From positions 1 through 20,667 of the IMG/VR virus record IMGVR_UViG_3300027906_003867: a DNA stretch of 20,667 bases. The stretch is one strand, 5' to 3'. A program made the position numbers and the translations under genes. The stretch is from a virus. Under the pieces are notes generated by a model. It ran no database searches. It was not told the DNA's origin and was given only the letters and a program-made list of their open reading frames with translations. Shown here in pieces: positions 1 to 20,667 of the stretch (within the stretch, counting starts at the first letter, position 1; each line of letters begins with the position of its first letter).

Positions 1-30
1 TTAGAGGTAGCCCACTCTGTCTTTGATTGA
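1..30 (+). CDS. possible 3' end of an upstream gene (partial)
   Basis: Frame 1 is open from the window edge and ends with TGA at 28-30, encoding nine residues (LEVAHSVFD). It ends 13 bases before the terminase ATG, which fits the tight packing of the later genes. Nothing about function can be said from nine codons, and an open frame this short could be chance. Confidence 0.25.
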   Translation, partial: LEVAHSVFD

Positions 31-33
31 TCC

Positions 34-40
34 AAGGGGG
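34..40 (+). promoter_or_regulatory. ribosome binding site of the terminase gene
   Basis: The purine run AAGGGGG lies 3 bases upstream of the ATG at 44. Its spacing is shorter than usual. An in-frame TTG at 23 would put this run inside the coding region and has no comparable purine run before it, so the site favours the ATG at 44 as start. Confidence 0.45.
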
Positions 41-43
41 GCC

Positions 44-1762
44 ATGACTAACGCTACGCATGAACAACATGGCGGCAACGTCAGCAAAGTCAGGGGACAG
101 AAGACTCGTGAATTGTTCCTTGAAGGACTCGCGGAGCATGGAACTATCTCTAAGGCGTGTGCTATCGCTGGTGTCACACGATCCGCTTATGACAAGTGGA
201 GACAAAGGATACCTGACTTCGCTGAGAAAGCTGACTCCATCAGGGCGAAAGCTCTCGCTGACGGCGGTGTAGATAAGTGGGACGGCACGTTTCAAAGTTT
301 CAGAAGTCACTATTTCGGCCACATGTCCCCTTGGTTCCATATCAAAGCCATCGAAGCGTATGAAAACACACCACCCGGAAACATCACCCTCATCCTTTGG
401 CCTCCAGAACACGGCAAAACAACGTTGGCCGAGGACTACTTCTGCTACAAACTGGCGACCAACCCCGAATTCAGGATCACCGTCGGATCTGAGGGCCAAG
501 ACATGGCTCGCAAAATTCTTGGGCGTATACGTTCTAGGATGGAACCTCATGGACCTTTCCCTAAATATGTAGCTAAATATGGGCCTTTCGTACCTCAAAA
601 CCAGAGTGGTCGTAAAACTGCTCAAGCGTGGGGTGCTGATTATTTTAACGTATTTAAGAAGGCTAGTCACGATGAGCGTGACTATTCGATGGTTTCTTTA
701 GGTTGGAGATCGAAGATCGCTGGTACACGTACCGATCATTTGCATATTGATGATATTCAATCTCGTGTTTCGTTGAACCTTACCGAACAGATGTTCGAGA
801 TTTTCCGTCAGGACTGGTTAACCCGTCCGGGTGAGAATGGTCGTACAAGTATTAATGGTACTCGTGTGGGTGAAGGCGATTTTTATGAACGTGTAATGAA
901 TGAGATAGATCCAGATATTCTTTCTGTGATTAGATTCCCTGCGATAGTGACTAACGATGAGGGTGAACCTGAACCGTTGTGGCCTGAAATGTTCTCTATG
1001 GATGCGCTTGACAGGATTAGACGCAAGGTTGGTGAAGAGGCATGGTCACGTAACTATATGCAACAGCCAAGTTCTTCTGCTGAAGCTACGTTCGATGAGG
1101 AATCTATACAGAAATGTTTGAATCCTTTACGTTCAGTGAATCATCATCCACCAAAGGACTGCACTGTTTACATTGGGTTAGATCCTGCTTTGGGTTCTAA
1201 TAACTGTGTTATAGCGGCTACTCCGCATGAGGATAAGTTAAAGATTCTTTTCGTTAGAGAGGATGTCGGGCTTACCCGTAATGAGCAGATACTAGGCATT
1301 GTTGAAGAAGCGATACTTAGATGCGGGCAGAATGGTGCATCAGTATCAGATGTTGTTATCGAAGCGATGGTATTCCAGAAAGGTTTATCTCGTGATGAGC
1401 GTCTTATAGAGATGACTGAACGATATGGATTTCGTGTGAGAGAACATTTAACTGGTGTGAATAAGTATGATGAAACTATTGGAGTTCCTTCTATGGCTTT
1501 ATCGTTTATGCGTGGTGAAATTGACATTCCTTATGCAGATGATCCATCCACACGCCATCAGGCTGATGAACTAATAAGACAGTTGAAAGCATGGCGGCCA
1601 TTAAAACGTGGTACTAAACTAAGACAGGATCAAGTTATGGCATTATGGTTCATTTGGATACTCTGGCGGCAAAGGAAACAATCATATAGTGTTGACTCTT
1701 CACAATTCAGCTTTAAAGGACTACCTTGGAAGACAAGTGTATCTAATAGTAGGGTTTTTTAA
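44..1762 (+). CDS. terL: terminase large subunit with N-terminal helix-turn-helix
   Basis: This is the ATPase and nuclease of the DNA-packaging motor, which docks on the portal and cuts and pumps phage DNA into the prohead. From the ATG at 44 it has 572 residues. Residues about 21-54 look like a DNA-binding helix-turn-helix (TISKACAIAGVTRSAYDKW), as in small terminase subunits. The ATPase follows: a Walker A-type loop PPEHGKTT at 120-127 (Lys125) and Walker B LHIDD at 233-237. The C-terminal RNase H-like nuclease shows its expected acidic residues: Asp380 in YIGLDPALG, Glu440 in VVIEA and Asp529 in RQDQVMALW. All expected catalytic positions are present, so it should be active. No separate small subunit is seen in the window. 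Bases 300-540 are about half G+C, against about 40% downstream. The stop overlaps the portal ATG (TAATG). Confidence 0.93.
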   Translation: MTNATHEQHGGNVSKVRGQKTRELFLEGLAEHGTISKACAIAGVTRSAYDKWRQRIPDFAEKADSIRAKALADGGVDKWDGTFQSFRSHYFGHMSPWFHIKAIEAYENTPPGNITLILWPPEHGKTTLAEDYFCYKLATNPEFRITVGSEGQDMARKILGRIRSRMEPHGPFPKYVAKYGPFVPQNQSGRKTAQAWGADYFNVFKKASHDERDYSMVSLGWRSKIAGTRTDHLHIDDIQSRVSLNLTEQMFEIFRQDWLTRPGENGRTSINGTRVGEGDFYERVMNEIDPDILSVIRFPAIVTNDEGEPEPLWPEMFSMDALDRIRRKVGEEAWSRNYMQQPSSSAEATFDEESIQKCLNPLRSVNHHPPKDCTVYIGLDPALGSNNCVIAATPHEDKLKILFVREDVGLTRNEQILGIVEEAILRCGQNGASVSDVVIEAMVFQKGLSRDERLIEMTERYGFRVREHLTGVNKYDETIGVPSMALSFMRGEIDIPYADDPSTRHQADELIRQLKAWRPLKRGTKLRQDQVMALWFIWILWRQRKQSYSVDSSQFSFKGLPWKTSVSNSRVF

Positions 1763-3579
1763 TGTATACCTTTGATGAAATAGTAGGAATTATAAGACAA
1801 AGGCAGGATATCCAAAGTCCTTTATTGGAAAGAATGCTTGAAGTTAAAGAAAGATATAACGGGGAATATGTAATTCCTTTGCCTTCGATGGAGAATGAAC
1901 CTGTTTTACCTCCATTAACTCCTGCTCTTATAGCAGAGAACATTGATGCTGTAGCTCAACGAGCCTCATCAGTTATGCCTTTCATCGGATGTCCTGCTAT
2001 AGACCAGTCTAAAGAACGAGGTGTTCGTTCCCGTGAGTACGCTGATATCCGTAGACGCGCACTTGCCGCTACGTGGTATTCTTCAAAGTATAAACTAAAG
2101 ATGCGTAGGGCATATCGTCATCTAGCTGGATACGCCACATCATGTCTAGTAGTTACTCCTGATTTTGACAAGGGGGTACCACGTATTGATGTTCGTGATC
2201 CTCTTGGTGTGTACCCAGAACCTAAAGCATATGAAGATGTAGAAGTTCCACGTAACTGTGGTTTCATTTACGGCAAGTCAGGCGACTGGCTACGTGCTCA
2301 TTATCCTGCCGCTAGGCAAGAGAATGGTGGACCTGTGCCTTCAGATAAGAACGCCCGTCAAGAATTGTGGGATGTGTGCGAATGGGTGGATGAAGAACAC
2401 ATTGTTATTGGAATAATGGGACCACGTTATAATCATCATAATCAAACCTACCCATATCATAGTACGCAAATAGAACTATCTCGTGCGCCTAACAAATCTG
2501 GTATGCCTTGTGTTATAACTCCGGGTCGAGTTTCATTAGATAAGATAGCTTCCTCTGTTTCTAACGTAGTTGGAATCGTAGATCTTATGTCAAAAATGAT
2601 GGCATTGGAAATACTTGCACAAGAAAAAGCAATCTTTCCTGATAGGTATATAATAGGACGATCGGGTCAGGTACCCATGATCGTCGGAGGTGAATGGAAA
2701 GACGGTCGTGAAGGAGAAGTAAATGTACTCCTCGATGCAGAAGCTATCGGCGAATTAAAATCAACTCCTGATCCGAGCACAAACATTGCGATCGACAGAT
2801 TGGAAAGAAATGCTCGTATTTCAACAGGAACCGTCCCCCAGATTGGTGGAGAAACCTATGGAGCGCTCCGTACCGGAAGAGGAATTGATTCCCTTATGGG
2901 CGCGGCGCTTGATCCGCGCATCCAAGAGATGCAAGAGATTATGGAGGCTCATCTTCCTCATCTAAATGAATGCCTGTTCGCTACTTACAAAGGTTACTTT
3001 GGTAGCAAACAGTTCTCTATGTTCACTGGCTACGCTGGAGATTTTGGACAAGTAGAGTTCACTCCAAACGAACACTTTGAAACACATGACAATGTTGTTT
3101 CGTACTCAATTCCCGGCGCAGACATTCAAGGCACGACGATACAATTAGGTCAGTTGCTTTCAATGAAAGGAATCAGCTTACGTACTTTCCGTACTAAGCA
3201 TCCATTCATTGAGGATGCTGAAGCTGAAGGACGTAGGGTAGATGAAGAACAACTTGAGGAGGCAGTTATGGCGGCGATACAGCAACAAGCATTGTCCGGT
3301 CAGTTGCCAGTGGTGTATGTCTCTAAGATTGAGAAGCATCGTAGGAAGGGTCTTGATATTTTTGAGGCTATCGAAAAAGCCGATAGTGAGATTCGTGAAG
3401 AGCAAGCGGCTGTAGCACCACCACCTGAACAGGGTATGGCTATGGCTCCAGAACAAGCACCCGGTTTAGCGGCTGGTCCAGAAGGTATGGCTCCGCAAGG
3501 AGGCCCTCCTACTGGTGGGCAAGAGATGACTCCTGAAGCCGCCGCTCAATTAGTGGGTGCATTACAGGCAGGTATCTAA
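1762..3579 (+). CDS. portal protein
   Basis: Portal proteins form the dodecameric ring at one capsid vertex through which DNA enters and leaves, and they bind the terminase and the neck. The call rests on the position directly after terL, a length of 605 residues, and the block GGETYGALRTGRGIDSLMG at about 362-380 followed by ALDPRIQEMQ. From memory, that block resembles actinobacterial-phage portals (a Gly-Gly, Arg-Thr-Gly-Arg-Gly stretch before the long helix). The N-terminal half is mixed alpha/beta with no signal peptide. Residues about 550-605 form a low-complexity tail rich in Pro, Gly, Met, Gln and Ala, probably disordered and perhaps facing the capsid interior. That tail ends with EAAAQL, also found at the end of the next protein. 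Start and stop overlap the neighbours by one base each. Confidence 0.85.
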   Translation: MYTFDEIVGIIRQRQDIQSPLLERMLEVKERYNGEYVIPLPSMENEPVLPPLTPALIAENIDAVAQRASSVMPFIGCPAIDQSKERGVRSREYADIRRRALAATWYSSKYKLKMRRAYRHLAGYATSCLVVTPDFDKGVPRIDVRDPLGVYPEPKAYEDVEVPRNCGFIYGKSGDWLRAHYPAARQENGGPVPSDKNARQELWDVCEWVDEEHIVIGIMGPRYNHHNQTYPYHSTQIELSRAPNKSGMPCVITPGRVSLDKIASSVSNVVGIVDLMSKMMALEILAQEKAIFPDRYIIGRSGQVPMIVGGEWKDGREGEVNVLLDAEAIGELKSTPDPSTNIAIDRLERNARISTGTVPQIGGETYGALRTGRGIDSLMGAALDPRIQEMQEIMEAHLPHLNECLFATYKGYFGSKQFSMFTGYAGDFGQVEFTPNEHFETHDNVVSYSIPGADIQGTTIQLGQLLSMKGISLRTFRTKHPFIEDAEAEGRRVDEEQLEEAVMAAIQQQALSGQLPVVYVSKIEKHRRKGLDIFEAIEKADSEIREEQAAVAPPPEQGMAMAPEQAPGLAAGPEGMAPQGGPPTGGQEMTPEAAAQLVGALQAGI

Positions 3580-3980
3580 TGCCAAGGAAAAGACAAAACG
3601 TAGGGTTAGAACACGGTGGCGATTACGGCACTGTTCAAGCTACAGCAGATAGTATGAATCCTAATATGGGTGGGGTACCCCTCCAAGGTGGTGAGGTAGC
3701 TCCAGATTTAAGTGGGATGCAACAAGCATCTCCTCCTATTAGACCACAGCGACCAGAGCAACCAACTACGTTAGGTCAACCTATACCTATTGAAGCGGCG
3801 CAAGCATTTACTCCACAGGTTAAACCTTTAACTGCACCGGGACAAACCTTTGGGCAAAGACCCTCTATAACTTCTATGCCATCTCCAAAACAAGAAGCCG
3901 CTGTATTGGTTTCTTCTTGGGCTTCTGCTACAGGAGATCCGCTACTCGCTGAAGCGGCGGCACAATTAGCTAATGGCTGA
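3579..3980 (+). CDS. small Pro/Gln-rich disordered protein, unknown function
   Basis: I do not recognise this 133-residue protein. It begins with a basic patch (MPRKRQ), is rich in Pro, Gln, Gly and Thr through about residue 105, and ends in a short Ala-rich helix containing EAAAQL. It lacks membrane segments and enzyme motifs and is probably largely disordered. It lies between the portal and the giant gene, overlapping the former by 1 base and the latter by 8 (ATGGCTGA). The position and composition would suit a scaffold-like, linker or portal-associated factor, but that is inference. The start overlaps the portal stop and has only a weak purine-rich site, so translation is probably coupled. 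It could alternatively be a detached extension of the portal tail, which has similar composition. Confidence 0.75.
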   Translation: MPRKRQNVGLEHGGDYGTVQATADSMNPNMGGVPLQGGEVAPDLSGMQQASPPIRPQRPEQPTTLGQPIPIEAAQAFTPQVKPLTAPGQTFGQRPSITSMPSPKQEAAVLVSSWASATGDPLLAEAAAQLANG

Positions 3981-6900
3981 ACGGGCTGGCAATAGAAAAG
4001 CCATAGGAACTTTCCAAGAGTATTCGTCTTTTGATGAAGAGCATTACGGTAGGCGTATGCAACTTTTGCTTAAAGCAGGAGGTGACCGTTATTTAAAAGA
4101 TGCTCCTGATACTCTCATTGCTTTAGCTAGTTCTTCTAAATCAGATAATGATATGCTTGATACTTTTCTTGATGGTCACACTCAAGTTGATTTCAATATG
4201 ATGAAAGAAAAAATGGAGGCTATGCCTCACCAGTTACAAGAGGCAGAATTTAATTCTCTTCCTGTAGCTACGCAGAATGTTCTTTTAAACGCAGGGTATG
4301 AAATACCTGATGCTAGTAGAGATGCTTTGTGGAAACGTATGTTGACATGGGATATCCCACTATTACCTGAAGAACATTTTGGTTCAGCAGTTAAATGGGG
4401 GATGGCTCCTATACGTGCTGTCGGTTTCGTAGCTGGTAAAGCAACAAGCACTCTTTGGGAAAAAGCAGTAATGGAACCTTCACGTTTTGCTACTCGACTT
4501 GGTAGAACAGGAGCTTATCTAACACAAAGGTATGGTGGTATTGCAAGTTGGGATCCATTAGCAGGCGCTCAAATGGGTAACCCTGCTAAATGGAGAGAAG
4601 CGTGGAATGCGACTAAACGGCAGAACGATTCTTTTTATGCTGGTACGTTAGAAAAATCTATTGAGCTTGTAGGTAAAGAACAAACAAATCTTTTGAGATC
4701 ATATCTTGCTGATGGCCAGCAAGGAGTTTATGAACTTATTTTAAATCAAGCACAAGGTGATGAACGAACGGCACAAGCAAGATTTGAAGCGTGGCAATCT
4801 ACGTTAGATAATCAAAATTCTTTAGATGCTTTACAAGTATTAGAGACTGGGAAGCTGACAATCTTTGATGCTTCCATCAGAGGATTTAATGCTGTGTCTC
4901 CTTATGATGTTTCTCCTAATAGTGTAGGTGGAAAGATAGTTGGAAGTGTCGGCGCTCTTGGTATAGAGATCCTTTTAGATCCTATGACTTGGGCTGGTGG
5001 TGCTTATGTAAAGATTTATAAAGCTATTAAATCTGGTGTGCGGGGTAGTGAGTACACAAAGAATCTAATTGATCTTCAAAGAAGAATTGCTATGACTGTT
5101 CGCACAGAGGACAGGATTTGGAAAACGATTAGAGGGGGACAAGGTGGGCAACTTTTTAAAGATTTAAAAGTTTGGAATCCTACTACTGGAACTTTCTCTG
5201 ATCCTACAGATGAGATTGCTGATTGGATTAAACAACCTAAAAAAGCTCGTGATGCCGCCGCTACCATAGATGGCATTCCTGTTTTCCAACCGCTACGTGA
5301 TCTATGGCAATCAGCCGCAGTTAGGATAGGAACAAGCCCACTTGTTTTACGCGCACAAGGTCATGCACACAATCGGTTTATTGACAGGGTGACTGATGCT
5401 TTCGGAGAGTTAGATGCACAGCAATTAGCTGAGATGCAGTTTAAAAAAACTGAAGCCTACTTAGATGGGTCTAAGACTTGGAAACAGAAACAAGCTGAAC
5501 TAATAGATGCAGGAGAATTCAATGTAGTTGATCCGATAGGACAGTTGCTACGTGATGTTCCCGGACTGCGTTCAATAATGCCAGACATGCTTAAACATCA
5601 CATGATGCGAAGGAAAATGAATCTTGTAGTAGATCAAGCGTACATTAATGAAAATGGTTACTTTGAAATCATAGATGATTTTACTGGTGAAATAATCAGT
5701 CAAGCTGATATAAGTGGATTCCATAATGTTCCAGATAGTGGTGTGTATGGAAAGAAGTTTTCACCTACAGACGAAGGTTGGATTGTTTGGGATGACATTC
5801 TTAAAGATCCAATAGAGATGAGAGGGATGACTAATAGGTCATTCCCTAGTCTTGCAGATCACGAAGGCTACTGGGAATTCTTAGAGAGTGCTGAAGGTAT
5901 GAAAGGGTTGGCAAGTAGTTTAGGTGGTGTTGATCCTGAAGCTATGTGGATACCTGCTATCTCAGCTTTCGGTGAACAGTGGATTAAAACTAAACGATGG
6001 GTTCGGAAGACACAAGACTTTTATAATGTTGACCTAGAAGCTAAAGCTGATATGGCTCGTTTAACTGCACAGTTTTTAGTTAAGCAAGGAAATTATGTAC
6101 ATAGAAAAGTATGGGAAGGTATCGAAGAAGGGGCAATTCAATTAAGTAAAGATATAGATGAACTTGATTTAGACAGACTTCTTAAAGACCCAAGACTCAC
6201 AGACAAAGCAGAACTCTCTCATAGCTACGATGAGTTGGGGTTGAACCATGACGACTACCAACAGATACAAGACGCAGTAGAAATTTTTGAGAAAGAAGCA
6301 CCTCTCTTTATTCTTGAGGATGCAGAGATGTCTGACCTTTACCATTGGTATGAAGCTGATGGATGGCATTTCCAAAAAAATCCAGACACAGGTGTATTAG
6401 AATTAACTGTAAAAAAACCTCCTGCATTTAAAAAGACTAAAGATCTTTATACAAGAAAAAGAAAAGAGCTAGAAGATAAATACTTTGACTCGAAGATACA
6501 TGGCGCTGGTAGCCAGAATGGTGAACTTGATTGGTTGACTAGAACAGGTATCATAACGAGATCGACTGCTACAGCTTTGATGTATCATCCTGCTAAGTTC
6601 GCAGAGAAACTAACAACCTATGTTCCCAAGGCAAGGCACTTAGATTTAACTGATCCTAATCTTGGACTTCAAGAGTTCCAAGCATTAGTTGATATGGGTG
6701 TTCTAGCTGATATGCCACGGACACAGATAGATCACTTCTTCCGTGACTACGTTCTAGGCAATGAAGCTGATAGGTGGAGAGTAACTACAGAATTTTATCT
6801 TGACTTCTTAGGTAGATCAGGAGCTATCTTAATGGGTGGTTCAGATGTAACAAAATTCATCGAACGATTTGTTAGACACGGCTACCATAAATATGGTCAA

Positions 6901-9900
6901 GTAGCAGAAGACTTTGTTGGAATACATGGTCTTAATGTTCGTGTAGCTGTTCATCCAAGCCAAGAACATTTAGCTCAGTTTGCTAAAGCAAATGTAATTC
7001 CTGATTACAGAGAGTTGGCGGCTGTTTCAAGATACATGTCTATGTATAGAAGACTCGGATGGGGGCTACCGTTACCGCAGATAGATAAGTTTATTGCTCG
7101 TGCTTGGCGACCAGCAGTTCTATTACGATTAGGTTACGTTGCTCGTAACGGTGGGGAAGAGCTTGCTACATGGTGGTGGCGTGAAGGTCCTACTAATTAT
7201 TTGAAACAGAAGATGGCACGTAAAGCTGTAGATATGCATCCAGTATGGGATGAGTACGGTCGCCGTGTAATGATGAAAGGTACTGACAAATTAGCTGATG
7301 GTCAAACTGTAGCTGATGCTGTAAGAGCGCCATTGTTCTGGCGGCCTTTCTCTAGACTGTGGAGATCATTCAATGAGTTCGCTGGTGTAGGAGACTACGC
7401 AATTACTACTAGAGCTATTAAAGAATCTATTGAAGCGAAGCCATACAAATGGCAATTTATGACTGAGGATCAAAGAGTAGAAGTTTTCAAACAAGTACGT
7501 GCAGGTATTGAAAAAGATATCAAAGCAAAGAAATGGTACAGCCCAAGTAAAACCAGTAAAAGATTATTTGAATTTGCTGATTCTAAAGCCAATGAGTTTA
7601 GTTTACTGTTAGATAATGTAAGAGATAAAATTCCGGGGCTACCATCAAAACATAAGCTTGCTGAAAAAATTGGTCGTGCAGTAGATGTAGATCACGATAA
7701 AAGAGTAGATGCGATTATACGTACTTACACTCATCCAACAATATTAGATGCACAAATGAAAGATGTTCTCGGTGGGTTTGATAACTATCTTAACTATTCA
7801 AAAAATACTTTAGATGATGCTTTAAGACAGACAGGTGTAGATAACCCAATCAATAATCTTGTTCAAATGGCAATGGTTGGTGTTCGTGAAAATACAGATT
7901 TGAAATACATCAGTACCATTGATAGCAGTTCTGTTCATGGTGTTCCTAAATCTGTAGCTGTCGCTCAAAGACTTGACATGATTAGTGAAGATAAAGCCGC
8001 TAGAAGATTTATACAAGAAGCAATGCATCATGTACCTGTAAACACTAGAGAAAAGTTACGACATCTTTCAGAGCAACTTCTTATAGCAGATCTTGATTTA
8101 GCACATTTAGCTACTGCTAATCCAGAAGAGATTGTTTTAACAGCTTTAAGAAAAGACCCCAAATCATTCGATAAACTCAGCAAAGCTTATAACAATATTA
8201 TTCCTGACGAAGCGATAGATGAAACAGGAGAATTAATATCTTCTGTAGTCTCAGGTGACATGGGTTACATAGATGCTGTGGATGAGTTCATTGAAGGCAG
8301 AGCCGGAGAAGAGCAATGGATTTGGGATATGCTTTTAAATCCTAAAGATGCCGCTGGTGTTGAAATAGGTGCCGATTGGAACCTCATGGCATTTCTATTA
8401 AGTGACCCAGATCAACTTGATATTGCAAAACTTACTGACAATTTTGATGAAGCAATAGATCGTGGCATGAAAGCATACGTAAGTTATCTTTCTGGCACAC
8501 CTGAAGGACAGCAATTCATTATGTCTTCTCACCGTGGTTCCGCTGGTGGCAGAGCAAAAGGTAGAATGGATCTTCCTTTACCTCCCGGAATGTCACGCTT
8601 ATTCATGCCGATGGTACCTGTTAGATTGGCGCAAAAATATACAGACATGCTACGTCCCGGTGGTGGGTTAACAAAAGAATGGTTTAACACATTTGTAGAT
8701 TCGCTTGGAGAAAGATTAACAACTATTGGTATATCTGCTGACGAAGCTACTAAAGCCGCTAGGTTGCTACATCCGGGTAATGTAGGTGAAACTTTATCTG
8801 CTCAAGTAGCTTTGATGGAAGAGTGGACACAGACTGGAAATTATTTCCCTGTGGTAGTTGGTAGTGCTGATGATCGTGTAGCTAGTGCTATATCCGAAAC
8901 GCTTATTGACATGTTGGATGATGGTCTAGCAACTGCTTCTGATGTTGCGACAGGTTCAGCAAGAGGAATGATTGGTTCTTTAGATGTGAACTCTGAATCT
9001 TTGTTTAATCAAGGTGGGTTTGCTTCTCATAGCCGTCCTGAGTTTAGAACTACCGTAACAAGAAACGGTGTTAAAGGTACTACTGAGTATAAAACATTAG
9101 CTGACGATATATCTGGTGAGCATTGGAATGACTTCTTTGGATTTGAAGGTGGTCGTGATCCTATTACTGGAGAAGTAACAGGGCGTGGTGTTGTTGGTGC
9201 TAAAGAATTTGGTGAAGGTGGATTAAAGAATGAAACAATGATAGGTGTTGGAGGGACTCATCTTCTATCTCCTAAGCCCGGAGGTTTCACTCCTATTCAT
9301 ATGCTTGATGGGCAACCACAAGTAGGCACAGTCAAGATTTATAAAGATAAAACTGGCAGGTTTATTCTTTTAGAAGAAGGAACTGAAATAGATCCTGACG
9401 CTGTTGATTGGTTTGCAAACGCAGAACTTGTAGAAGAACAACGTGTGCCTATGAATGGTATTCGTGCTACTGCTGAAGAGTACGCTTTGTTAGCTAAACA
9501 AGAACTCATTGATCTTTTGTCAAGTGGTTCACGGCGTGGTGTCGGTCAAGAAGAATGGTTCTACCCTTGGATACGTGAAACCATAAGTGGTCAACCTGTT
9601 AGCGCTCATAGAGTTCATCGTGCCGCTACAGATGGTAGATGGTGGCCTCATGCACCTAAAGATATTTTAGCTTTCGTTCCTGTTACTAATGAAGCTGGTG
9701 GGATTGGAGAAAAAATTAGTGACGCTTGGACTACTGTTTTAAGAAACTGGTTTGATGGTGTTGTTAATCCCATGATTGGTGCGATGGTAAGGGAACCTAT
9801 GTTCCAGCATTATTTGATGCTTGGTTGGGATCAAACGATAGGTATCCGTCGTAATTTTGATAGAGCGAAACGTGATGTTGTCTCTAAAGAAACTATTAGA

Positions 9901-12210: not shown

Positions 12211-14630
12211 TGAGTGATATGGGTTTACCTGATCCGACTGGTCTTAATGAAGCGATGGCTCCAGCAATAGAAGAGATTCGTGATGAAGCGCATGACATTA
12301 TAGGTCGAGGTGGTGATGCCTTATATGACACAATCATGGGACCAGAAGGGGATCATTACCGAACAGGTGTTGAAAACTTTGGTCGAGGTATTCAGTCTTT
12401 AGATAGACACTTGGGTAGACCACTTGAGGGATGGGTAAAAAGAACTGGAGAATATGGTGAGGCCGCACTTGATTTTATAGGCCCATTCACATGGCTTGAT
12501 GAATGGCTCTTAGGAACAAAAGAAGAAAGAGAACAAGATGCAAGAAGAGACTCTGCTGATTACTATGACTCTGACGGTGGCGATCTAACAGAACAAGGCA
12601 CTGGTCGTGAAACAATAAAAGAAATTCATTTCGATTCCATGAGTAAAGAAACTGCTTTCATAAAGTTTATTAACTGGCTTACTGGTCATGGCATTTCCCG
12701 ATTAGAACGTGAAGGCGCACCATTAGGACAATCAATCCTGTTAGGTGGAACACAGTTCATGGGAGAGGATGGTAAACCGTCTGCTGAATTATTGGATCTG
12801 AGTAATATAGAAAACCGCAATATGGTTTACAATTATATTGCGGACAACTGGACTAAGATCCCTCAAGTTAAAGACAAGGTGCAAGCTGAACTGCAAAGAG
12901 CTTTTGATATTATGGCTTCAGCTAACCCTGACGAGGATTGGGATTGGGAAGAAAGAGGATGGGATAAACCTTACCTACCTGAAGATGAACTCGGCAGAGA
13001 AACAATGGCTGAGATTCTTAGAGTGCTAGGGAACTCTGTGAGTAATCAGATGGACACACCTAGTTATAGAAGAGCAGGTGAATCAACTGCTAGCGTAAAC
13101 ATAGCGAACATGAACCAAATGTGGGGGCATAACGCTTTTGAGCATCTAGTAGCAGAAAACTTTGAGAAAGCAATAATGGCCGCTACTGAAGATCTTATAG
13201 GAAACAACAGAGCGCTTTTATTAGGACCAGATGTTGCAACTCTTGGCGAAGGAATACTACCTTCTGTCGATGGAGATGATGAATCCTTAGCAAACAAAAT
13301 AGGTTTCATTACTTCTTTCGACGGCACAGCTTTCGGAGATATTGAAAGCGTTAAAGATTTATTTTCAAATGGCAAGATCGGTCCAATGGATGCCCACTAT
13401 TTCATGGACAGACTATATAACGAGACGAGAGATGGAAACGGATACTCTTCGCTTGTTGCACAAATACAACAAGAGTTATACGCATGGGGTTACATGGGCG
13501 CTCCTGCCGAATGGGGCAAGTTAGAAATTCCGGGTCTTGTACGTGGAGAAGCAGGAGCTACTGCCGATCCAACTACTGACGCTCTTCAAATGTTGCAGGT
13601 AGATTTTCTCCAAGAAGGATTAAATACACCTAAGGCAGAACTTTCACCTGATGGTTCCGCATACTTAGACACTGTTATAAACAGAAGTGTTGCTCGTAAA
13701 TTAGAAACTCTTCCGGGTAGGGGTGGGCAAGAAACAGGGTACTTGAATGCTATAGAGAGTGTGATCGGTGGGTTAGATAGTCTTGCTAGTAGAAGTGGTA
13801 GAACTTTTTCTGATGAAGGTAAAGCTAATGTACGTGAGAAACTTAAAGCTCAGATAAAAGAAATGAGAGATTCTCCTTTGGGTGAGGATCAAGAAATGTT
13901 TGAGGAAGCTTTTGGTGGAGGTGGTTTACCTGCACAGCAGGCGGTTGCTGATATTGCTATGAGATTATTTTACCAAGATGAAAACTGGGATGAGAATGTT
14001 TTCATAGGAGCTAACGATTCTGATTTTGATTACTATCGTTACGCTAAACAATCAGGTGCTTTAAGCGAAGAAGAAATATTTGCAATAGAAAACTCGCCAG
14101 CGTGGGGTTCAGGTACAGCTACGAAACCTTTTTATCAGGCAGGTTTAAATCCGGGTCAGTTCCAAAAGGTTCCTAATGTTACAACTCAAGATCGAGGGAC
14201 AGTATTTAATCAAATGGATGTTACTTATGACGATTACGTAGACCCTAGAGCCGTTACTAGAAAAGCGGCGAGGGATGTTATCGTTAGTTTCTTCTTGGAT
14301 CTTATACAGCAACAAGGAGAAGAAGCCGCTGTTGGTGAGAGTGGTTCGTTAGCTAATGCATTAAATACTTTTGGTCATACTTTAGGAGCGAGAGTTGGTA
14401 CAGATTATGCATACACGATGCGTGATTATGAACGTATGGCACGAGAGATACGTGAAGAGTTAGCGTTAGAACCTACTCCTGAACAGCCTGAATTGTTTAG
14501 AACTTTAGAGGAACGTATAGCTAAAGCTAATCAGTTGACTGGTGTGAATCCACAACCGTTCGCTCAGATAGCTAATGTTATATCTAGAAGACGTAACTTA
14601 ACCAACATGCCGACAGGAAGAAACCAATGA
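12210..14630 (+). CDS. large acidic protein, unknown; probable virion component
   Basis: I do not recognise this 806-residue protein. It is acidic, with many Asp and Glu residues and a cluster DEDWDWEERGWDKP at about residue 230. The first 60 residues look like amphipathic helices with Gly and Asp, and the C-terminal 150 residues are helical and charged, ending in a basic tail (ISRRRNLTNMPTGRNQ). There is no signal peptide, no convincing membrane segment and no known catalytic motif. It begins inside the stop of the giant gene (TAATG) and ends in a 4-base ATGA overlap with the next gene, so it is probably translated from the same message. The context suggests a structural or ejected internal protein; a neck or tail component is the main alternative. 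Confidence 0.85.
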   Translation: MSDMGLPDPTGLNEAMAPAIEEIRDEAHDIIGRGGDALYDTIMGPEGDHYRTGVENFGRGIQSLDRHLGRPLEGWVKRTGEYGEAALDFIGPFTWLDEWLLGTKEEREQDARRDSADYYDSDGGDLTEQGTGRETIKEIHFDSMSKETAFIKFINWLTGHGISRLEREGAPLGQSILLGGTQFMGEDGKPSAELLDLSNIENRNMVYNYIADNWTKIPQVKDKVQAELQRAFDIMASANPDEDWDWEERGWDKPYLPEDELGRETMAEILRVLGNSVSNQMDTPSYRRAGESTASVNIANMNQMWGHNAFEHLVAENFEKAIMAATEDLIGNNRALLLGPDVATLGEGILPSVDGDDESLANKIGFITSFDGTAFGDIESVKDLFSNGKIGPMDAHYFMDRLYNETRDGNGYSSLVAQIQQELYAWGYMGAPAEWGKLEIPGLVRGEAGATADPTTDALQMLQVDFLQEGLNTPKAELSPDGSAYLDTVINRSVARKLETLPGRGGQETGYLNAIESVIGGLDSLASRSGRTFSDEGKANVREKLKAQIKEMRDSPLGEDQEMFEEAFGGGGLPAQQAVADIAMRLFYQDENWDENVFIGANDSDFDYYRYAKQSGALSEEEIFAIENSPAWGSGTATKPFYQAGLNPGQFQKVPNVTTQDRGTVFNQMDVTYDDYVDPRAVTRKAARDVIVSFFLDLIQQQGEEAAVGESGSLANALNTFGHTLGARVGTDYAYTMRDYERMAREIREELALEPTPEQPELFRTLEERIAKANQLTGVNPQPFAQIANVISRRRNLTNMPTGRNQ

Positions 14631-17485
14631 CAGTTAACCCATCTGATTGGAAAGCGGCCGAAGCTTATTTGGAATTATTAAGAGCGATACATATATCTGT
14701 TATGGAGATGGGTGTACCTATGGCTCATCAAAGATCAATAGGTAATACTGTTACTTCTGATCCGGGTGAATGGGCTGAAGGGCTTGATACTAGACTTCCA
14801 AAAACTTCGGAGATAGGGAATGTCCCATTTGAACATCCTGTTGAATCCGATTTGTTTATTAAACAAGCTGATGTTCTAGCGAACCAATGGGGTTTACCTA
14901 GTTATAATTCTATAGTTGGTAATCTTAAAACTTTGGGTGTTTCAACAAGAGAACTTATGTATGCGTGGGATGTGAAACCAGAAGTTATTCCTGCAACAAG
15001 AGGTGGTTCTTCATCTGGTAGGGCTGGTTTTAATCCTAATGTCGGATTGCAAAATGAAACAGTTTATACAAATCAGTTTTATACACAGAATCCTTTTTCA
15101 GAGAAACCCGGCATATTTGAAGCTGGTTACACTCATGGTGTTTACCGACCTAATAATGTTTTAACTGGTAGGCAAGGGACATTTGTTGGACCTAACACTG
15201 AAGAAGTTCTAGCTTCTGGTGGTGATCCTAGACGACCGGGAGTAAAGCTACGCCCTGATGATGAGTGGATGAATGCAACTGAAGACGAAAGAAAATGGAT
15301 GCAAGCCGAGCAAAATACATTGCTTAATCGTTTTACTTCTAGTAATCAAGAATTTAAAATTGATCCACACCCTGCAAAGATACCACATCAAGGCAAGTTC
15401 GATCATCTGATACCTCTCATCCCTAATAGCGCTCTTGAATGGGGACTTGAATTAGGTATAGGTATGGCTCTTGGACCTGCTGGTCGAGCCGCTATGGGTA
15501 AAGCAGTTACATCTTTTACACGTTGGCTTAATCCTGCAAACAGATTAAAGAGTAGAGAATTAATCCTTTTACCAGACGGCACTATATCAAGATCAACTCC
15601 GAGATTAGCTGGTCCAGATCAAGGACCAAATCCAATAGGAATGATTAGACGCGATATGCCTGATCCTTCAGATTATGCTTCAGTGCGTGAATATGAAATA
15701 GCTTTAGAAGAATGGCAGAAACGTGCTTATCCTGATCCGGGTGTAAAAGAGTTTACTGACATGGTGCAAGGCAGTGGTGGTGACAATATTGTTCCTCTTA
15801 ATAGAGCGGCTAATAGAGAAGAATGGGATGACGAGTTGATGGAACTCGAACACCAGATGAATGAATATGAAAATTATATTAGAGCCAAAACTGCGGCACA
15901 TGGAGGGATGACTCCGAAACAAATCCGACAAGTTTTAGATGAGTTATCTCAATCTGATTTACTTGATGATGCTTTTTATAGCCAAAACGCAGAAAGAGTA
16001 CAGTCTCTTTGGGATCGTGCCGCTCCAATGATTGATGATGATCCTTGGCGTGATCCTAATACTTTAGCTGAGGCTTTAAGTTTGTTTAAACAAGAACATA
16101 AAGCTAACCCTATTAAGGGTGGGATGGGTTACGAATACCCTGAGATGATTACTAAAGAAGATCTGTTGCCTTATATGAGGACTGCTATAACTAACCGTGA
16201 AAGAAGAGCGCTTCATGAAAGTCCTGAGTGGGGCATAGAAAAAATGGAAGAGATGTTAACAGAGGATAGTCCTGATGCTGGCATACAGAAACTTTTAGAT
16301 GAAATAAATTCACCAAAACCAGATGAATGGGATGAGGGCATTACTGATTTTGTTAAAAGGGTAAGCGACGAAATGGGTATCCCTCGTTATGATGGTTGGG
16401 ATTCTTTTATGGCTAACGCCGCTGATGCGGATTATCAAAAAATAAAAGACTTAGGATTTGATGAAGATTGGTTACGAACAAATGTTCATAACGACGATCA
16501 GTTAGCGCAATTTTTTGAGCTAATAGATATGGATGTGAATGTTCAAGAATTAGATCGAATGATAGCAGACTACGACGCGCAGATTGCACAGCAACCTCAA
16601 GATCCATACTTTGGAGATGGCATAACTGATGACGAAATAATTGATGGTTTAGATTTATCTAGACAACCGTTTAATCAAGATGATGAAATTCTTCCTGATG
16701 GTAGTTTTAATACTGGTGAAACACCAAAAGAACAAGAAGCATTAGCAAAATTTTTACGTGAAAGAAAATACCATCTTGATGATGTTAAGGAAGCGCTTGA
16801 TATAACTAGAGGCAAGTCTTCGGGTGAGTTACCAATTAATACTGGGTCAGGTAGCGGTCCGGGTAAAGGTAAGGTATTCGATCAAGATAGCGTTTATGGT
16901 CAAGAAAATAGTAGGAGATTATATGGTTGGCTACTAGCTGGTGCTGGTGGCGCGGCAGTAACAACATGGTTAGCAACAAACCCAGATCACGTAAGTAAAC
17001 TTATTGATTTCACTAGCAAATTAGGAAATGTAATAGGTAAAGGTGCGCGAGGTACTGGGCATCAGAGCATTGATTCTTTAAATCCGGGGCTTGCTAATCA
17101 AATTTTTGGTATGAACTCTGCTTTAGCTGGTTCGACGATTATCGCTGGCGCGGAAGATCCTTCTATATTTGATGGTATGAATGGTGAGCTTCGTCGGGTA
17201 GGACAGAACCCTGAGAAGGTTTTACCTAAAGATGTTCAAATAGATTTACAGAATGGTGACGCTGTGTTCGTTGGTTATGACAGTATAAAAGATCAAGAAG
17301 AAGCTATTAGTTTAGCTCCGAGATTTGGGGTGGAAGTATCTGCTGATCTTCCTCATATATGGAGGAAACCTAATCGTAAAACTATTATGCCTCCTGCCGA
17401 TCAGGGATGGGATTCTGATCGGTTGAAGAAGTTTGCTATGCAACAGCAGTTTTATCCTGATGCTGGTTTGAGAAGGAGAACTTGA
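14627..17485 (+). CDS. large protein with a hydrophobic segment, unknown; probable virion component
   Basis: I do not recognise this 952-residue protein. The first 250 residues are Asn-, Gly- and Pro-rich with aromatic residues. Residues about 270-294 are a glycine-rich, partly hydrophobic stretch (LELGIGMALGPAGRAAMG). Residues about 385-735 are strongly acidic and probably helical. Residues about 765-785 (LYGWLLAGAGGAAVTTWLA) are the best membrane-spanning candidate in the window, and another weakly hydrophobic stretch (GMNSALAGSTIIAGA) follows at about 826-840. The last 110 residues look like a small mixed alpha/beta domain. A late hydrophobic helix in a big virion protein would suit insertion into the host envelope during DNA ejection, but that is inference. 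AGGAAG lies 8 bases upstream of the ATG, and the start overlaps the previous stop by 4 bases. Confidence 0.85.
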   Translation: MTVNPSDWKAAEAYLELLRAIHISVMEMGVPMAHQRSIGNTVTSDPGEWAEGLDTRLPKTSEIGNVPFEHPVESDLFIKQADVLANQWGLPSYNSIVGNLKTLGVSTRELMYAWDVKPEVIPATRGGSSSGRAGFNPNVGLQNETVYTNQFYTQNPFSEKPGIFEAGYTHGVYRPNNVLTGRQGTFVGPNTEEVLASGGDPRRPGVKLRPDDEWMNATEDERKWMQAEQNTLLNRFTSSNQEFKIDPHPAKIPHQGKFDHLIPLIPNSALEWGLELGIGMALGPAGRAAMGKAVTSFTRWLNPANRLKSRELILLPDGTISRSTPRLAGPDQGPNPIGMIRRDMPDPSDYASVREYEIALEEWQKRAYPDPGVKEFTDMVQGSGGDNIVPLNRAANREEWDDELMELEHQMNEYENYIRAKTAAHGGMTPKQIRQVLDELSQSDLLDDAFYSQNAERVQSLWDRAAPMIDDDPWRDPNTLAEALSLFKQEHKANPIKGGMGYEYPEMITKEDLLPYMRTAITNRERRALHESPEWGIEKMEEMLTEDSPDAGIQKLLDEINSPKPDEWDEGITDFVKRVSDEMGIPRYDGWDSFMANAADADYQKIKDLGFDEDWLRTNVHNDDQLAQFFELIDMDVNVQELDRMIADYDAQIAQQPQDPYFGDGITDDEIIDGLDLSRQPFNQDDEILPDGSFNTGETPKEQEALAKFLRERKYHLDDVKEALDITRGKSSGELPINTGSGSGPGKGKVFDQDSVYGQENSRRLYGWLLAGAGGAAVTTWLATNPDHVSKLIDFTSKLGNVIGKGARGTGHQSIDSLNPGLANQIFGMNSALAGSTIIAGAEDPSIFDGMNGELRRVGQNPEKVLPKDVQIDLQNGDAVFVGYDSIKDQEEAISLAPRFGVEVSADLPHIWRKPNRKTIMPPADQGWDSDRLKKFAMQQQFYPDAGLRRRT
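17473..17478 (+). promoter_or_regulatory. ribosome binding site that fixes the start at 17485
   Basis: AAGGAG ends 6 bases before the ATG at 17485, an ideal spacing. A TTG immediately before that ATG is also in frame, but the strong site and the TGATG overlap with the previous stop favour ATG. Confidence 0.6.
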
Positions 17486-19179
17486 TGGCAGATCCAACAG
17501 AGCAACCACCCGGAACTTTACCTAACTATCCGGGAGTTATGTTAAGTGCTGAAGGGTTAAAAACTTTCATTCAAGAACTTGCTGACTTTTACATAGAGGG
17601 AGGGTACGAAGCGTCCGCTATCAGTGACGAAATCTATGAGGTGTTTAATAATTCTCGTACTCGTGGTGGTGGTGGGTTTGGAACCCGTGAAGAAATAATA
17701 GCTTTGTTAACTATGGAAATGGGTTCTGAAGGTGAAGCTGTTTTAGAACAATTCGCAGATTTCTTTATGATGGCTAGTAATATATGGCAGTTCGCTGATT
17801 ACGCTGGTACTGGTGAGTACACGTTCCAAGATTTTGTAGACGCTCAAATAGATTCTTATGAGGCTGGTTCTCTTACTGACTTCCCAGAAGCCTTCTCAGA
17901 ATTTACAGGCATAGCTTCTCCTGCAAATCCCATAGAATCTTTAGAGGGTGAACCATTCTCACCTGAAGGTCAGCCGGCACAACAAGGGGAAGGTTTACCC
18001 GTTGCACCTCCTATCCCTATCAGCCAGATCCCTTACATTCCGGGTGCTGATGGTAAGCTAGGTGATTGGAATTGGTTAGATTTATGGGGTGACACCAATC
18101 CTTTGGTTGAAGATTTCTTTGATTTTTGGGTAGATAAATTTAATGAACCTGATCCTGAAGGCTCAAATTTTGGTTACGAAGTTGAAACTTTACAGCATGA
18201 TTTTTTCTATAATCCGACTCACGGTTTATATGCACAAGACTGGTGGATAGATCAACAACAATCACTCTTAGATCACATGGAGTTCTTCTACAATTATGGC
18301 GGCGAAGGTAATATCGAAAGTGTTATAAACACTACGATGGGTGGGGATGCTTGGCGGCCTTGGACTGGGATCGTTGGTATTGCAGATCGACCTGAAAGTA
18401 ACGCATACAACTCAGCTATTCTAGAATTTACAGAATGGGCGAGGGAAGCCATACGAGAAGCAGGTGGTAAGGATGCTTTGCTTAATGGTATTGTAGATGA
18501 TTTTGAACTTGCAGGTTACGCATATCTTATTATGTCTAATGGTGGTGCAACCTTTAAATTAGGTAGAGACAGAGAAGGTTTCAGACCAGACGAGTTTAAA
18601 GAGAAAGCTAAACAACTTGTTGAAAAACAATTCCTTGATAACTGGACTGACGAAGACGGCAACTTTATTGAGAAGATGTCTGGCACAATGTCCTTCGGTG
18701 TTGGGAGTATACGTTCTCTTATGAACGAATGGCGCGCTTTAGGTAAACGAAACTTCCAAGACTTCTCTGATAATGAACTACGTAAATGGGCTGTTGATGT
18801 TAAATCTGAAAAGATAACTAAAGAAATGGTGGATGCTGAGATAACTAAACGTGCGTTCCATCGTATTGAATGGCCGTTCACGCCAGAAGAAAGAGAAGAT
18901 TACATAGCTAAAGGCGCTACGTTAGATGACGTTTTGAATGGACAGTATCTTTCTGTTAAAAGCTTATGGGAAGACGCGAGTCTTTTACCTGATGACCCTT
19001 GGTTGCTTGCTAACTATGCGTTCACAGATGAGAATGGGAACCGCCGGTTCAGAAGTTCACAAGAGTTAATGACTCATGCTCGTACCAATATGGATAAGTT
19101 TCAGTATTCTAACGAATCAAAAGATTTTCACAATGACTTTATTACAGGGGCGGCACGTATGTTTAGGAGTAGTTACTAA
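17485..19179 (+). CDS. acidic aromatic-rich protein, unknown; probable virion component
   Basis: This 564-residue protein is unrecognised. It is very acidic and rich in Trp, Phe and Tyr. A Pro/Glu/Gly-rich linker at about residues 145-185 separates an N-terminal helical domain from a larger C-terminal region. That region begins around GDWNWLDLWGD and holds many Trp-containing helices, for example QDWWIDQQQ and DAWRPW. I see no membrane segment, signal peptide or catalytic motif. The two-domain layout with a flexible linker is common in virion proteins and gives no specific function. It overlaps both neighbours by one base (TGATG and TAATG) and has a strong ribosome binding site, so it is probably made in good amounts. 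A minor tail or internal core protein would fit the position. Confidence 0.85.
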   Translation: MADPTEQPPGTLPNYPGVMLSAEGLKTFIQELADFYIEGGYEASAISDEIYEVFNNSRTRGGGGFGTREEIIALLTMEMGSEGEAVLEQFADFFMMASNIWQFADYAGTGEYTFQDFVDAQIDSYEAGSLTDFPEAFSEFTGIASPANPIESLEGEPFSPEGQPAQQGEGLPVAPPIPISQIPYIPGADGKLGDWNWLDLWGDTNPLVEDFFDFWVDKFNEPDPEGSNFGYEVETLQHDFFYNPTHGLYAQDWWIDQQQSLLDHMEFFYNYGGEGNIESVINTTMGGDAWRPWTGIVGIADRPESNAYNSAILEFTEWAREAIREAGGKDALLNGIVDDFELAGYAYLIMSNGGATFKLGRDREGFRPDEFKEKAKQLVEKQFLDNWTDEDGNFIEKMSGTMSFGVGSIRSLMNEWRALGKRNFQDFSDNELRKWAVDVKSEKITKEMVDAEITKRAFHRIEWPFTPEEREDYIAKGATLDDVLNGQYLSVKSLWEDASLLPDDPWLLANYAFTDENGNRRFRSSQELMTHARTNMDKFQYSNESKDFHNDFITGAARMFRSSY

Positions 19180-20570
19180 TGGCAGATAATCTTTTTGATT
19201 TAGCTAGAGCAGTTCCGGGTTTAGATGTAGATGAGATGGATCCGTTAAATCTTTTAGCTCAAACTATTGAGAGGTTAGGGGCAGTAGGTCAAGGCAATTT
19301 AAAATCTGCTGTTACTCAAGAGGATATTGCACGATGGGCTGGAGAAATAGGTGGCACGGTTGACGGTGGCCGTGGCAGAGGTTGGGAAGCCGCTGAACAA
19401 ATCCGTAGTGATATTTTAAAATATCGTGTCGGTGTAGACCAGTTAGAAGAAACATTTGGTATGACTACTGCTCAGGCAGAAGCGGCTGTGGAACTAGGCG
19501 GCGATATCGCTGGAACAGTGATCCAGTCAGGTGGCAAACATCCGGGTACTATCAATCCTTACTCTCCATCTAAGACAATAACTGAAACTATTTACAATGA
19601 TGATGGGACAGTAACATATGTTTATAGTGACGGCACTATCCAAATTGTTGGCACTCCAAAGGTTGAGTCTACGGAAAGTATTATTAACAGAATGCAAGAT
19701 GCATTCATGCTTGCTTTACGCAACGCAGGGATGAGTACAGAAAATATTACTACTCTTTGGAATTGGGCTCATGCAAAATTTAAAGCAGATTCTTCTTTTA
19801 CTGCTGAACGTGCGCTATTAGAAATGTATGACCAGCCAGCTTTCAAAGAAAGATTCCCTGCTATTGCTAACATGAGGGAACGTGGAGAGAAAAACATTCC
19901 AACTCCGGGTGAGTACATTGCTTTTGAAAAGGATGTAGGTACTTCTTTGAAACAGTTCGGTGTGGAATATACTACGGGTGAACACAGGGATCTAATAACA
20001 ACTCTTATTGAGAATAATGTAGGTATGCCTGAAGTCAATGAAAGGCTAACTGAAGCAGAACGTATTACTTATTCTGTGCCTAGAGAAGTTCAAGAAACAT
20101 TGATGCAATGGTATTCGCCAACGTGGGCTAAATCTATTGAGATGAAAATGTTTTTAGATCCTACTCAGGATTGGGCATCAGTTCAGGATGATATAGAAAC
20201 TGCTGAAGTAGGTGGTTGGGGTAAGATGGTAGCTGGTTTGGATGAAGGTTGGAACGCAGAGATGGCTAATCAGATAGCTGATCTTGGTTTATCTCAGGCT
20301 CAAGTATGGAACTCTTTCGCTAGTCTTAAACAAGAAGAAGCTTTGTTCGCTGAACAAGTAGGTGAGGATACTAATTTACAGTATGAAACACATGGTGTTA
20401 GCTCACAATTTGGTATTGATATAGCTGGCGAGGATGATGCTTTAGAATTAAAAGATATGTTAGAACGTAGAAAGCAACGAAGAATATCTAGATTCGCTGG
20501 TGGAGGTACTGGTCAAGCTGGTGCTATTATTAGTGGACAGACTACAGGTATAGGGAGTGCCAATGCCTAA
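19179..20570 (+). CDS. virion-associated protein with FPAI/EYIAFE motif and Gly-rich tail
   Basis: 463 residues. Residues about 219-262 contain PAFKERFPAI, then TPGEYIAFEKDV and LKQFGV. From memory this follows a pattern seen in large structural proteins of actinobacterial and marine phages: a Tyr/Phe-Lys-x-Arg-Phe block, a short linker, then Glu-Tyr and a helix. The following helical region (LIENNVGMPEVNERL, then LGLSQAQVWNSFASL) and the end, a basic helix RRKQRRISRF followed by GGGTGQAGA and TTGIGSANA, match the same remembered layout. Such proteins are mostly labelled hypothetical or minor structural. The N-terminal 150 residues include a short beta-rich stretch (GTVTYVYSDGTIQIVG). There are no catalytic motifs. 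AGGAG precedes the start by about 10 bases, and the ATG overlaps the upstream stop. Confidence 0.85.
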   Translation: MADNLFDLARAVPGLDVDEMDPLNLLAQTIERLGAVGQGNLKSAVTQEDIARWAGEIGGTVDGGRGRGWEAAEQIRSDILKYRVGVDQLEETFGMTTAQAEAAVELGGDIAGTVIQSGGKHPGTINPYSPSKTITETIYNDDGTVTYVYSDGTIQIVGTPKVESTESIINRMQDAFMLALRNAGMSTENITTLWNWAHAKFKADSSFTAERALLEMYDQPAFKERFPAIANMRERGEKNIPTPGEYIAFEKDVGTSLKQFGVEYTTGEHRDLITTLIENNVGMPEVNERLTEAERITYSVPREVQETLMQWYSPTWAKSIEMKMFLDPTQDWASVQDDIETAEVGGWGKMVAGLDEGWNAEMANQIADLGLSQAQVWNSFASLKQEEALFAEQVGEDTNLQYETHGVSSQFGIDIAGEDDALELKDMLERRKQRRISRFAGGGTGQAGAIISGQTTGIGSANA

Positions 20571-20646
20571 ATTACAAACAAGCTCTTCCAAAGGGAAGGC
20601 AAAGAAAGTACCTTATAAGAAGGTAAAGAAAGGTAAACGTAAATAA
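20563..20646 (+). CDS. 27-residue lysine-rich mini-protein
   Basis: This short frame starts with ATG inside the end of the 463-residue gene (8-base overlap ATGCCTAA) and stops where the next ATG begins (TAATG). AGGGAG lies about 6 bases upstream. The product has 11 Lys and 1 Arg among 27 residues, with no acidic residue, so its charge is about +12. Most of the charge is in the second half (YKKVKKGKRK). Such a peptide would bind nucleic acid or an acidic partner; a DNA-condensing, packaged or scaffold-like role is inference. It keeps the overlap pattern of every other gene here and has a ribosome binding site, which argues that it is translated despite its length. The alternative is a spacer that only passes ribosomes to the next gene. 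Confidence 0.7.
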   Translation: MPKLQTSSSKGKAKKVPYKKVKKGKRK

Positions 20647-20667
20647 TGTTTAACAAAGACGTACTTG
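20646..20667 (+). CDS. 5' end of the next gene (partial)
   Basis: The ATG at 20646 overlaps the preceding stop (TAATG), and seven codons (MFNKDVL) follow before the window ends. The purine-rich GAAAGG lies upstream. Because every other junction in the window has this form, it is very probably a real start. The product cannot be identified. A capsid or scaffold gene is plausible because neither is recognisable upstream, but seven residues cannot show it. Confidence 0.6.

Follow-up and report, generated by a model that had tools for sequence, protein, structure and literature searches.

CCWGG is a known orthodox Type II restriction site, and we take MvaI to cut CCWGG, BcnI CCSGG and NgoFVII GCSGC. 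For the C5 methyltransferases of SPbeta-like Bacillus phages, the targets (GCNGC, CCWGG and GAGCTC) overlap with the words considered here. About one viral genome in ten, usually that of a non-temperate phage, shows an almost complete loss of Type II sites, and GCWGC is among the listed recognition sites, the palindromic Type IIM sites also being orthodox Type II sites (Rusinov et al. 2018, PMC6286503). Here we compare with these systems a 20,667-base virus record that carries eight collinear genes (the window; Table 1). The literature search turned up no relevant account of a phage that avoids CCWGG together with GCWGC.

Motif-specific absence of GCWGC and CCWGG in the window

Counted on both strands over all 20,667 bases, the window contains no GCAGC, GCTGC, CCAGG or CCTGG, and the neighbouring words are plentiful (GCSGC 42, CCSGG 29, CCWGC 29 and GCWGG 51). 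An order-2 Markov model expects 32.3 occurrences of GCWGC (Poisson p = 9e-15) and 28.7 of CCWGG (Poisson p = 4e-13), the two strongest depletions of all the degenerate palindromes tested in the window. We also made the shuffled-codon count proposed in the first-pass annotation. In 500 synonymous codon shuffles, performed gene by gene, 31.5 GCWGC and 31.0 CCWGG were expected, with a minimum of 22 for either word; GCSGC, which the annotation had described as frequent, exceeds its shuffled expectation of 12.6, and CCWGC and GCWGG occur at normal levels (22.9 and 48.2 expected).

Table 1. Features of the window (1-based positions).
Feature	Position	Strand	Remarks
Whole window	1..20667	.	region without GCWGC, CCWGG, SAGCTS and TGATCA
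Terminase large subunit gene	23..1762	+	phrog_38
Portal protein gene	1762..3579	+	phrog_104
GCCGCCGC	3538..3545	.	two overlapping GCSGC, the form replacing GCWGC in Ala runs
133-aa gene	3579..3980	+	no assigned function; between portal gene and giant gene; no PHROG match
Giant gene, 2745 aa	3973..12210	+	G002 homologue of the same length, with GCWGC apparently regained
GCCGCCGC	5254..5261	.	two overlapping GCSGC
806-aa gene	12210..14630	+	no assigned function; without GCWGC
952-aa gene	14627..17485	+	no assigned function; without GCWGC
565-aa gene	17482..19179	+	no assigned function; without GCWGC
463-aa gene	19179..20570	+	phrog_8424 (unknown function)

The choice of alanine codons follows the same rule. 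In the 35 Ala-Ala pairs of the window, the first codon is GCC (19) or GCG (16) and never GCT or GCA, and where the second codon is free to vary it is GCT or GCA in 27 of 32 pairs; our recount thus reproduced exactly the figures given in the annotation. Its use of this within-pair contrast as a control for codon preference is sound: across all eight genes, GC follows a GCT or GCA codon in 0 of 457 cases and a GCC or GCG codon in 35 of 123. Because of this contrast, dinucleotide or codon bias fails to account for the absence of GCWGC. Had bias of the dinucleotide, codon or codon-pair kind, or chance, produced the zeros, the rarity of GCC as an alanine codon outside these contexts might be cited in its favour, but the codon shuffles and Markov models expect about 30 occurrences of each word and never fewer than 21, and GCWGC is present in close relatives of similar codon usage. 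Bias and chance are already refuted, and we leave them a negligible probability. The absence of both words is real, strong and motif-specific, which bears out the earlier suggestion of a motif-specific pressure.

Independent switching of motifs among relatives

A search with the terminase retrieved 80 IMG/VR contigs (terminase identity 81–100%), giving 81 sequences with the window, and CCWGG is avoided in 76 of these 81. In the clade at 41–44% GC, GCWGC is avoided as well (pooled observed/expected: GCWGC 5/559, CCWGG 1/543), and SAGCTS is avoided in most members but not in one subgroup. All 45 contigs at 49–57% GC lack CCWGG and AGCT and have GCWGC in excess; pooled over this AGCT-avoiding clade, the counts are 1/533 for CCWGG, 3/652 for AGCT and 820/497 for GCWGC. 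Four contigs at 58–60% GC avoid neither CCWGG nor GCWGC. Both depletions, for which the annotation proposed to test related contigs, are therefore seen together in most of the 41–44% GC clade, and of the two words the 45 contigs at 49–57% GC lack only CCWGG.

Single contigs break the pairing in both directions. Two members of the window's own clade carry GCWGC again (L007, that is, contig G002: 40 against 76 expected in 44 kb; L015: 14 against 12 expected) with CCWGG and SAGCTS at zero, and in L078 the situation is reversed (GCWGC 1/13, CCWGG 5/10). The terminase tree requires at least three changes of state for GCWGC and at least two each for CCWGG, SAGCTS and AGCT. The direction of change in G002 and L015 is taken from parsimony: nearly all the other clade members lack such sites, so that the two contigs are read, most simply, as having regained GCWGC independently.

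The first-pass annotation had proposed either a second specificity in addition to that for CCWGG or a single enzyme reading both palindromes; the former is upheld, the latter is not. If one enzyme, or one host system, read GCWGC and CCWGG, both absences would be a single event, as their joint absence from the window and the bulk of its clade would allow, and multispecific C5 methyltransferases do exist in Bacillus phages. However, the excess of GCWGC beside the near-zero CCWGG of the AGCT clade, the reappearance of GCWGC alone in G002 and L015 and the reversed state of L078 all separate the words; in addition, these phages have no C5 methyltransferase, and CCWGC and GCWGG are undepleted. We consider a single enzyme very unlikely. 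As the two states dissociate among relatives, GCWGC and CCWGG reflect separate pressures.

The aligned sequences record how the sites differ. Over 20 kb, the DNA of G002 is 91.3% identical to that of the window, and 10 of the 11 aligned GCWGC sites of G002 are GCSGC in the window, with the centre base alone differing. In control words (GCWGA/G/T and A/C/TCWGC), an exchange of A/T and G/C at the centre is seen in only 3 of 260 cases (Fisher p = 6e-15 against 10 of 11). Likewise, 9 of the 14 GCWGC sites of L015 are GCSGC in L014. GCSGC, the product of a centre-base change of GCWGC, is enriched 2.8-fold. Judged from these alignments, what is at work is selection against the word GCWGC, which would be removed by the cheapest silent change. 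Mutation rather than selection would have emptied the genome of sites if methylated cytosines in GCWGC and CCWGG were deaminated, or if a Vsr-like repair removed them, and C5 methylation does raise cytosine mutability. Nevertheless, the deamination products GTWGC (1.23) and GCWAC (1.28) are no higher than other one-step neighbours (1.0–1.4), CTWGG/CCWAG stand at 0.8, and the enriched product is GCSGC; moreover, mutation alone does not reach zero, and GCWGC shows no depletion in the genomes of the candidate hosts. The substitution spectrum already refutes this account, to which we give hardly any probability.

The erased set extends beyond these two words. In the window, SAGCTS (0 against 21 expected) and TGATCA (0 against 11 expected) are missing, as are CAATTG, SACGTS and the non-palindromic AGACCT by codon shuffle, and across the window and its relatives G000–G018 about ten further words are missing or nearly so. 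Pooled within each of the two subgroups of the low-GC clade, the observed/expected counts are 2/64 and 0/80 for SACGTS, 0/70 and 0/91 for AGACCT, 2/40 and 0/55 for GAGACC, 0/44 and 0/53 for CAATTG, and 2/70 and 3/85 for TGATCA; GDGCHC is avoided in one low-GC subgroup only (4/184). The pooled 49–57% GC clade avoids, besides AGCT, GRGCYC (2/160), GCCGGC (0/72), TGGCCA (1/77), CGATCG (1/87) and CCMKGG (4/250). The earlier statement that avoidance covers precisely the palindromes whose ends match is accurate among the SCWGS words but not beyond them, since about ten unrelated words, AGACCT among them, are gone too. Some of these words (the degenerate palindromes SAGCTS and SACGTS and the non-palindromic AGACCT and GAGACC) may mark undescribed restriction specificities.

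General palindrome avoidance was considered as a cause and rejected: six-base palindromes as a class stand at 0.5–0.6 of expectation, a level that lambda and a Streptomyces phage share and that cannot yield the zeros, and those two phages have no comparable zeros among well-expected 4–5 bp palindromes. Separately, GGCC falls to 10 against 73 expected (0.14) in G006 (L093–L094), lower than in its relatives, which suggests another recent restriction pressure.

Phage genes, candidate hosts and their restriction systems

Methyltransferases of the families PF00145, PF01555 and PF02086 (C5, N4/N6 and D12-type) were found in 0 of 20 related records, four of them 44–48 kb long, the window's own genome being incomplete. 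No integrase was present among the families matched in the part of the gene set that was scanned, and a relative of the Gp3-like recombination directionality proteins, related to those of Streptomyces phages, occurs in the phage family. A comparison of the terminase with bacterial genomes found no provirus relative; cultured phages gave distant terminase matches alone, mostly from Streptomyces phages at about 25% identity, and no match to the WhiB-like and DUF932 proteins. The length of the giant gene varies across the family, from 2745 aa in the window to 4463 aa in G017 (24918–38309), and it is far larger than the other genes.

The lack of a methyltransferase would also suit a phage that makes its own site-specific endonucleases to destroy host DNA, so that the words missing from a lineage are the sites of its own enzymes. 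Near-absolute absences that track phage lineage agree with such an arrangement, and these phages do encode a PD-(D/E)XK and an HNH protein. Neither protein follows the motifs, however: the PD-(D/E)XK protein (Cas4/RecB-like) turns up in each of the seven contigs spanning its locus, regardless of which motifs they avoid, and the HNH protein is found with either motif state. A 48-aa open reading frame is the sole gene cluster that the four long GCWGC-avoiding contigs possess and that G002 and G017 lack, and PADLOC detected no restriction enzyme among the phage genes scanned. Phage-encoded endonucleases thus seem to us a very unlikely cause.

Clues to the hosts come from genes of the relatives. 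A WhiB-like Cys4 protein (L087:6457-6789, L083:1017-1325 and L090:5736-6104), which marks actinobacterial hosts, has the four cysteines of this actinobacterial family and a Pfam score of 23.0, just below the cut-off of 23.6. The Gp3-like factor, with its kinship to Streptomyces phages, is another such clue. A phage ferredoxin occurs in two forms of 81 and 91 aa (L082:8088-8333 and L087:18968-19243); of its 80 best matches in GTDB genomes, nearly all belong to Acidimicrobiia, one of these being the marine single-cell genome AG-410-I20, and it is probably an acquired metabolic gene. No tRNA genes, sought as a host marker, were found in the phages. By tetranucleotide profile, the low-GC phages match members of the AG-410-I20 family at 42–44% GC, and the AGCT-clade phages match members at 58–60% GC. 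In the marine MedAcidi-G1 family (Acidimicrobiales), photic members average 42% GC and deep ones 57–72% (PMC10205998), a split that fits the two GC classes of phages. A contig of this phage family that lacks CCWGG and AGCT (L123, PAOV01000021.1) is binned in the metagenome-assembled genome Chloroflexi bacterium SAT206; this points either to contamination of the bin or to a broader host range, and the label says little in favour of a different host. On the strength of these relatives, the window itself holding no host marker gene, the hosts are most likely marine Acidimicrobiia. The proposal that shared avoidance could link phage to host did not survive: six sampled genomes of the AG-410-I20 family carry GCWGC at 1.2–1.5 and CCWGG at 0.6–0.75 of expectation, and a link through shared GCWGC avoidance fails because the candidate hosts carry that word above expectation.

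Restriction genes are present in this host group. Of 48 genomes from the AG-410-I20 family, 8 encode a C5 methyltransferase; in AG-410-I20 itself it adjoins an NgoFVII-type endonuclease (L202), and one adjoins an endonuclease of the MvaI/BcnI family (L209; PF15515, E = 3e-46), whose nearest solved structure, R.MvaI, hints at CCWGG. Only 9 of 298 genomes in the order have an enzyme of the MvaI/BcnI type, although draft genomes lose such genes. No host genome proved to carry a demonstrated GCWGC system, and a search of the host family for an EcoRII-C endonuclease gave no match but is uninformative, its control having stayed silent too. A PF01555 methyltransferase scores above the cut-off in 41 of the 48 host-family genomes (L215–L244), with the same neighbours and no endonuclease adjoining; considered as a CCWGG system, it was set aside as a core orphan.

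Probable loss of Type II sites by selection and its known counterparts

We infer both the agent and the host from these observations, and we assign a probability of roughly 85% to the full explanation, in which host Type II restriction selected for site loss in a phage of marine Acidimicrobiia. The absence is most likely the footprint of host restriction. The window would be part of a tailed, probably lytic phage of about 47 kb that infects uncultured marine Actinomycetota, most likely Acidimicrobiia, and GCWGC and CCWGG would be the targets of two different Type II systems met in the host population. With no recognised methyltransferase, the phage would survive by having no sites; GCWGC would be removed mainly by replacing the A or T at its centre with G or C, a synonymous change wherever a GCN alanine codon precedes GC, and sites would return at the same positions once a lineage leaves the pressure. 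Because about ten erased words per lineage exceed what one strain usually restricts, it must be a population of strains that exerts the pressure.

Read in this manner, the erased words would be a record of the restriction enzymes used by the hosts of an uncultured phage. Close relatives that differ by single words could make the loss and return of restriction pressure traceable in the ocean, and the erased set could predict, before cultivation, which restriction systems are carried by marine Acidimicrobiia populations.

Among known systems, the MvaI/BcnI type (CCWGG/CCSGG) has a counterpart in the L209 pair of the candidate host family, whose putative site by kinship to R.MvaI is CCWGG; the type is rare in the host order. 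The NgoFVII type is matched by the full pair L202 in AG-410-I20, and its site family, GCNGC, agrees; however, NgoFVII reads GCSGC, which this phage keeps, and L202 could be the agent only after a switch to GCWGC. Unlike the Bacillus phages with multispecific C5 methyltransferases (SPbeta), these phages encode no C5 methyltransferase in any of the 20 records, and the words dissociate between lineages. A close counterpart is the elimination of Type II sites in non-temperate phages (Rusinov et al. 2018, PMC6286503), with which this case shares observed/expected ratios below 0.1 for palindromic words of 4–6 bp, the absence of any phage methyltransferase found and of any sign of an integrase. What sets it apart is that its hosts are uncultured, that some ten words have gone at once and that the erased set switches motif by motif between close relatives. 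Site elimination is thus a strategy already known, and the case is of an ordinary kind. Its unusual features are its completeness across an uncultured phage family, the many words jointly erased, and the loss and regain of single words seen between close relatives.
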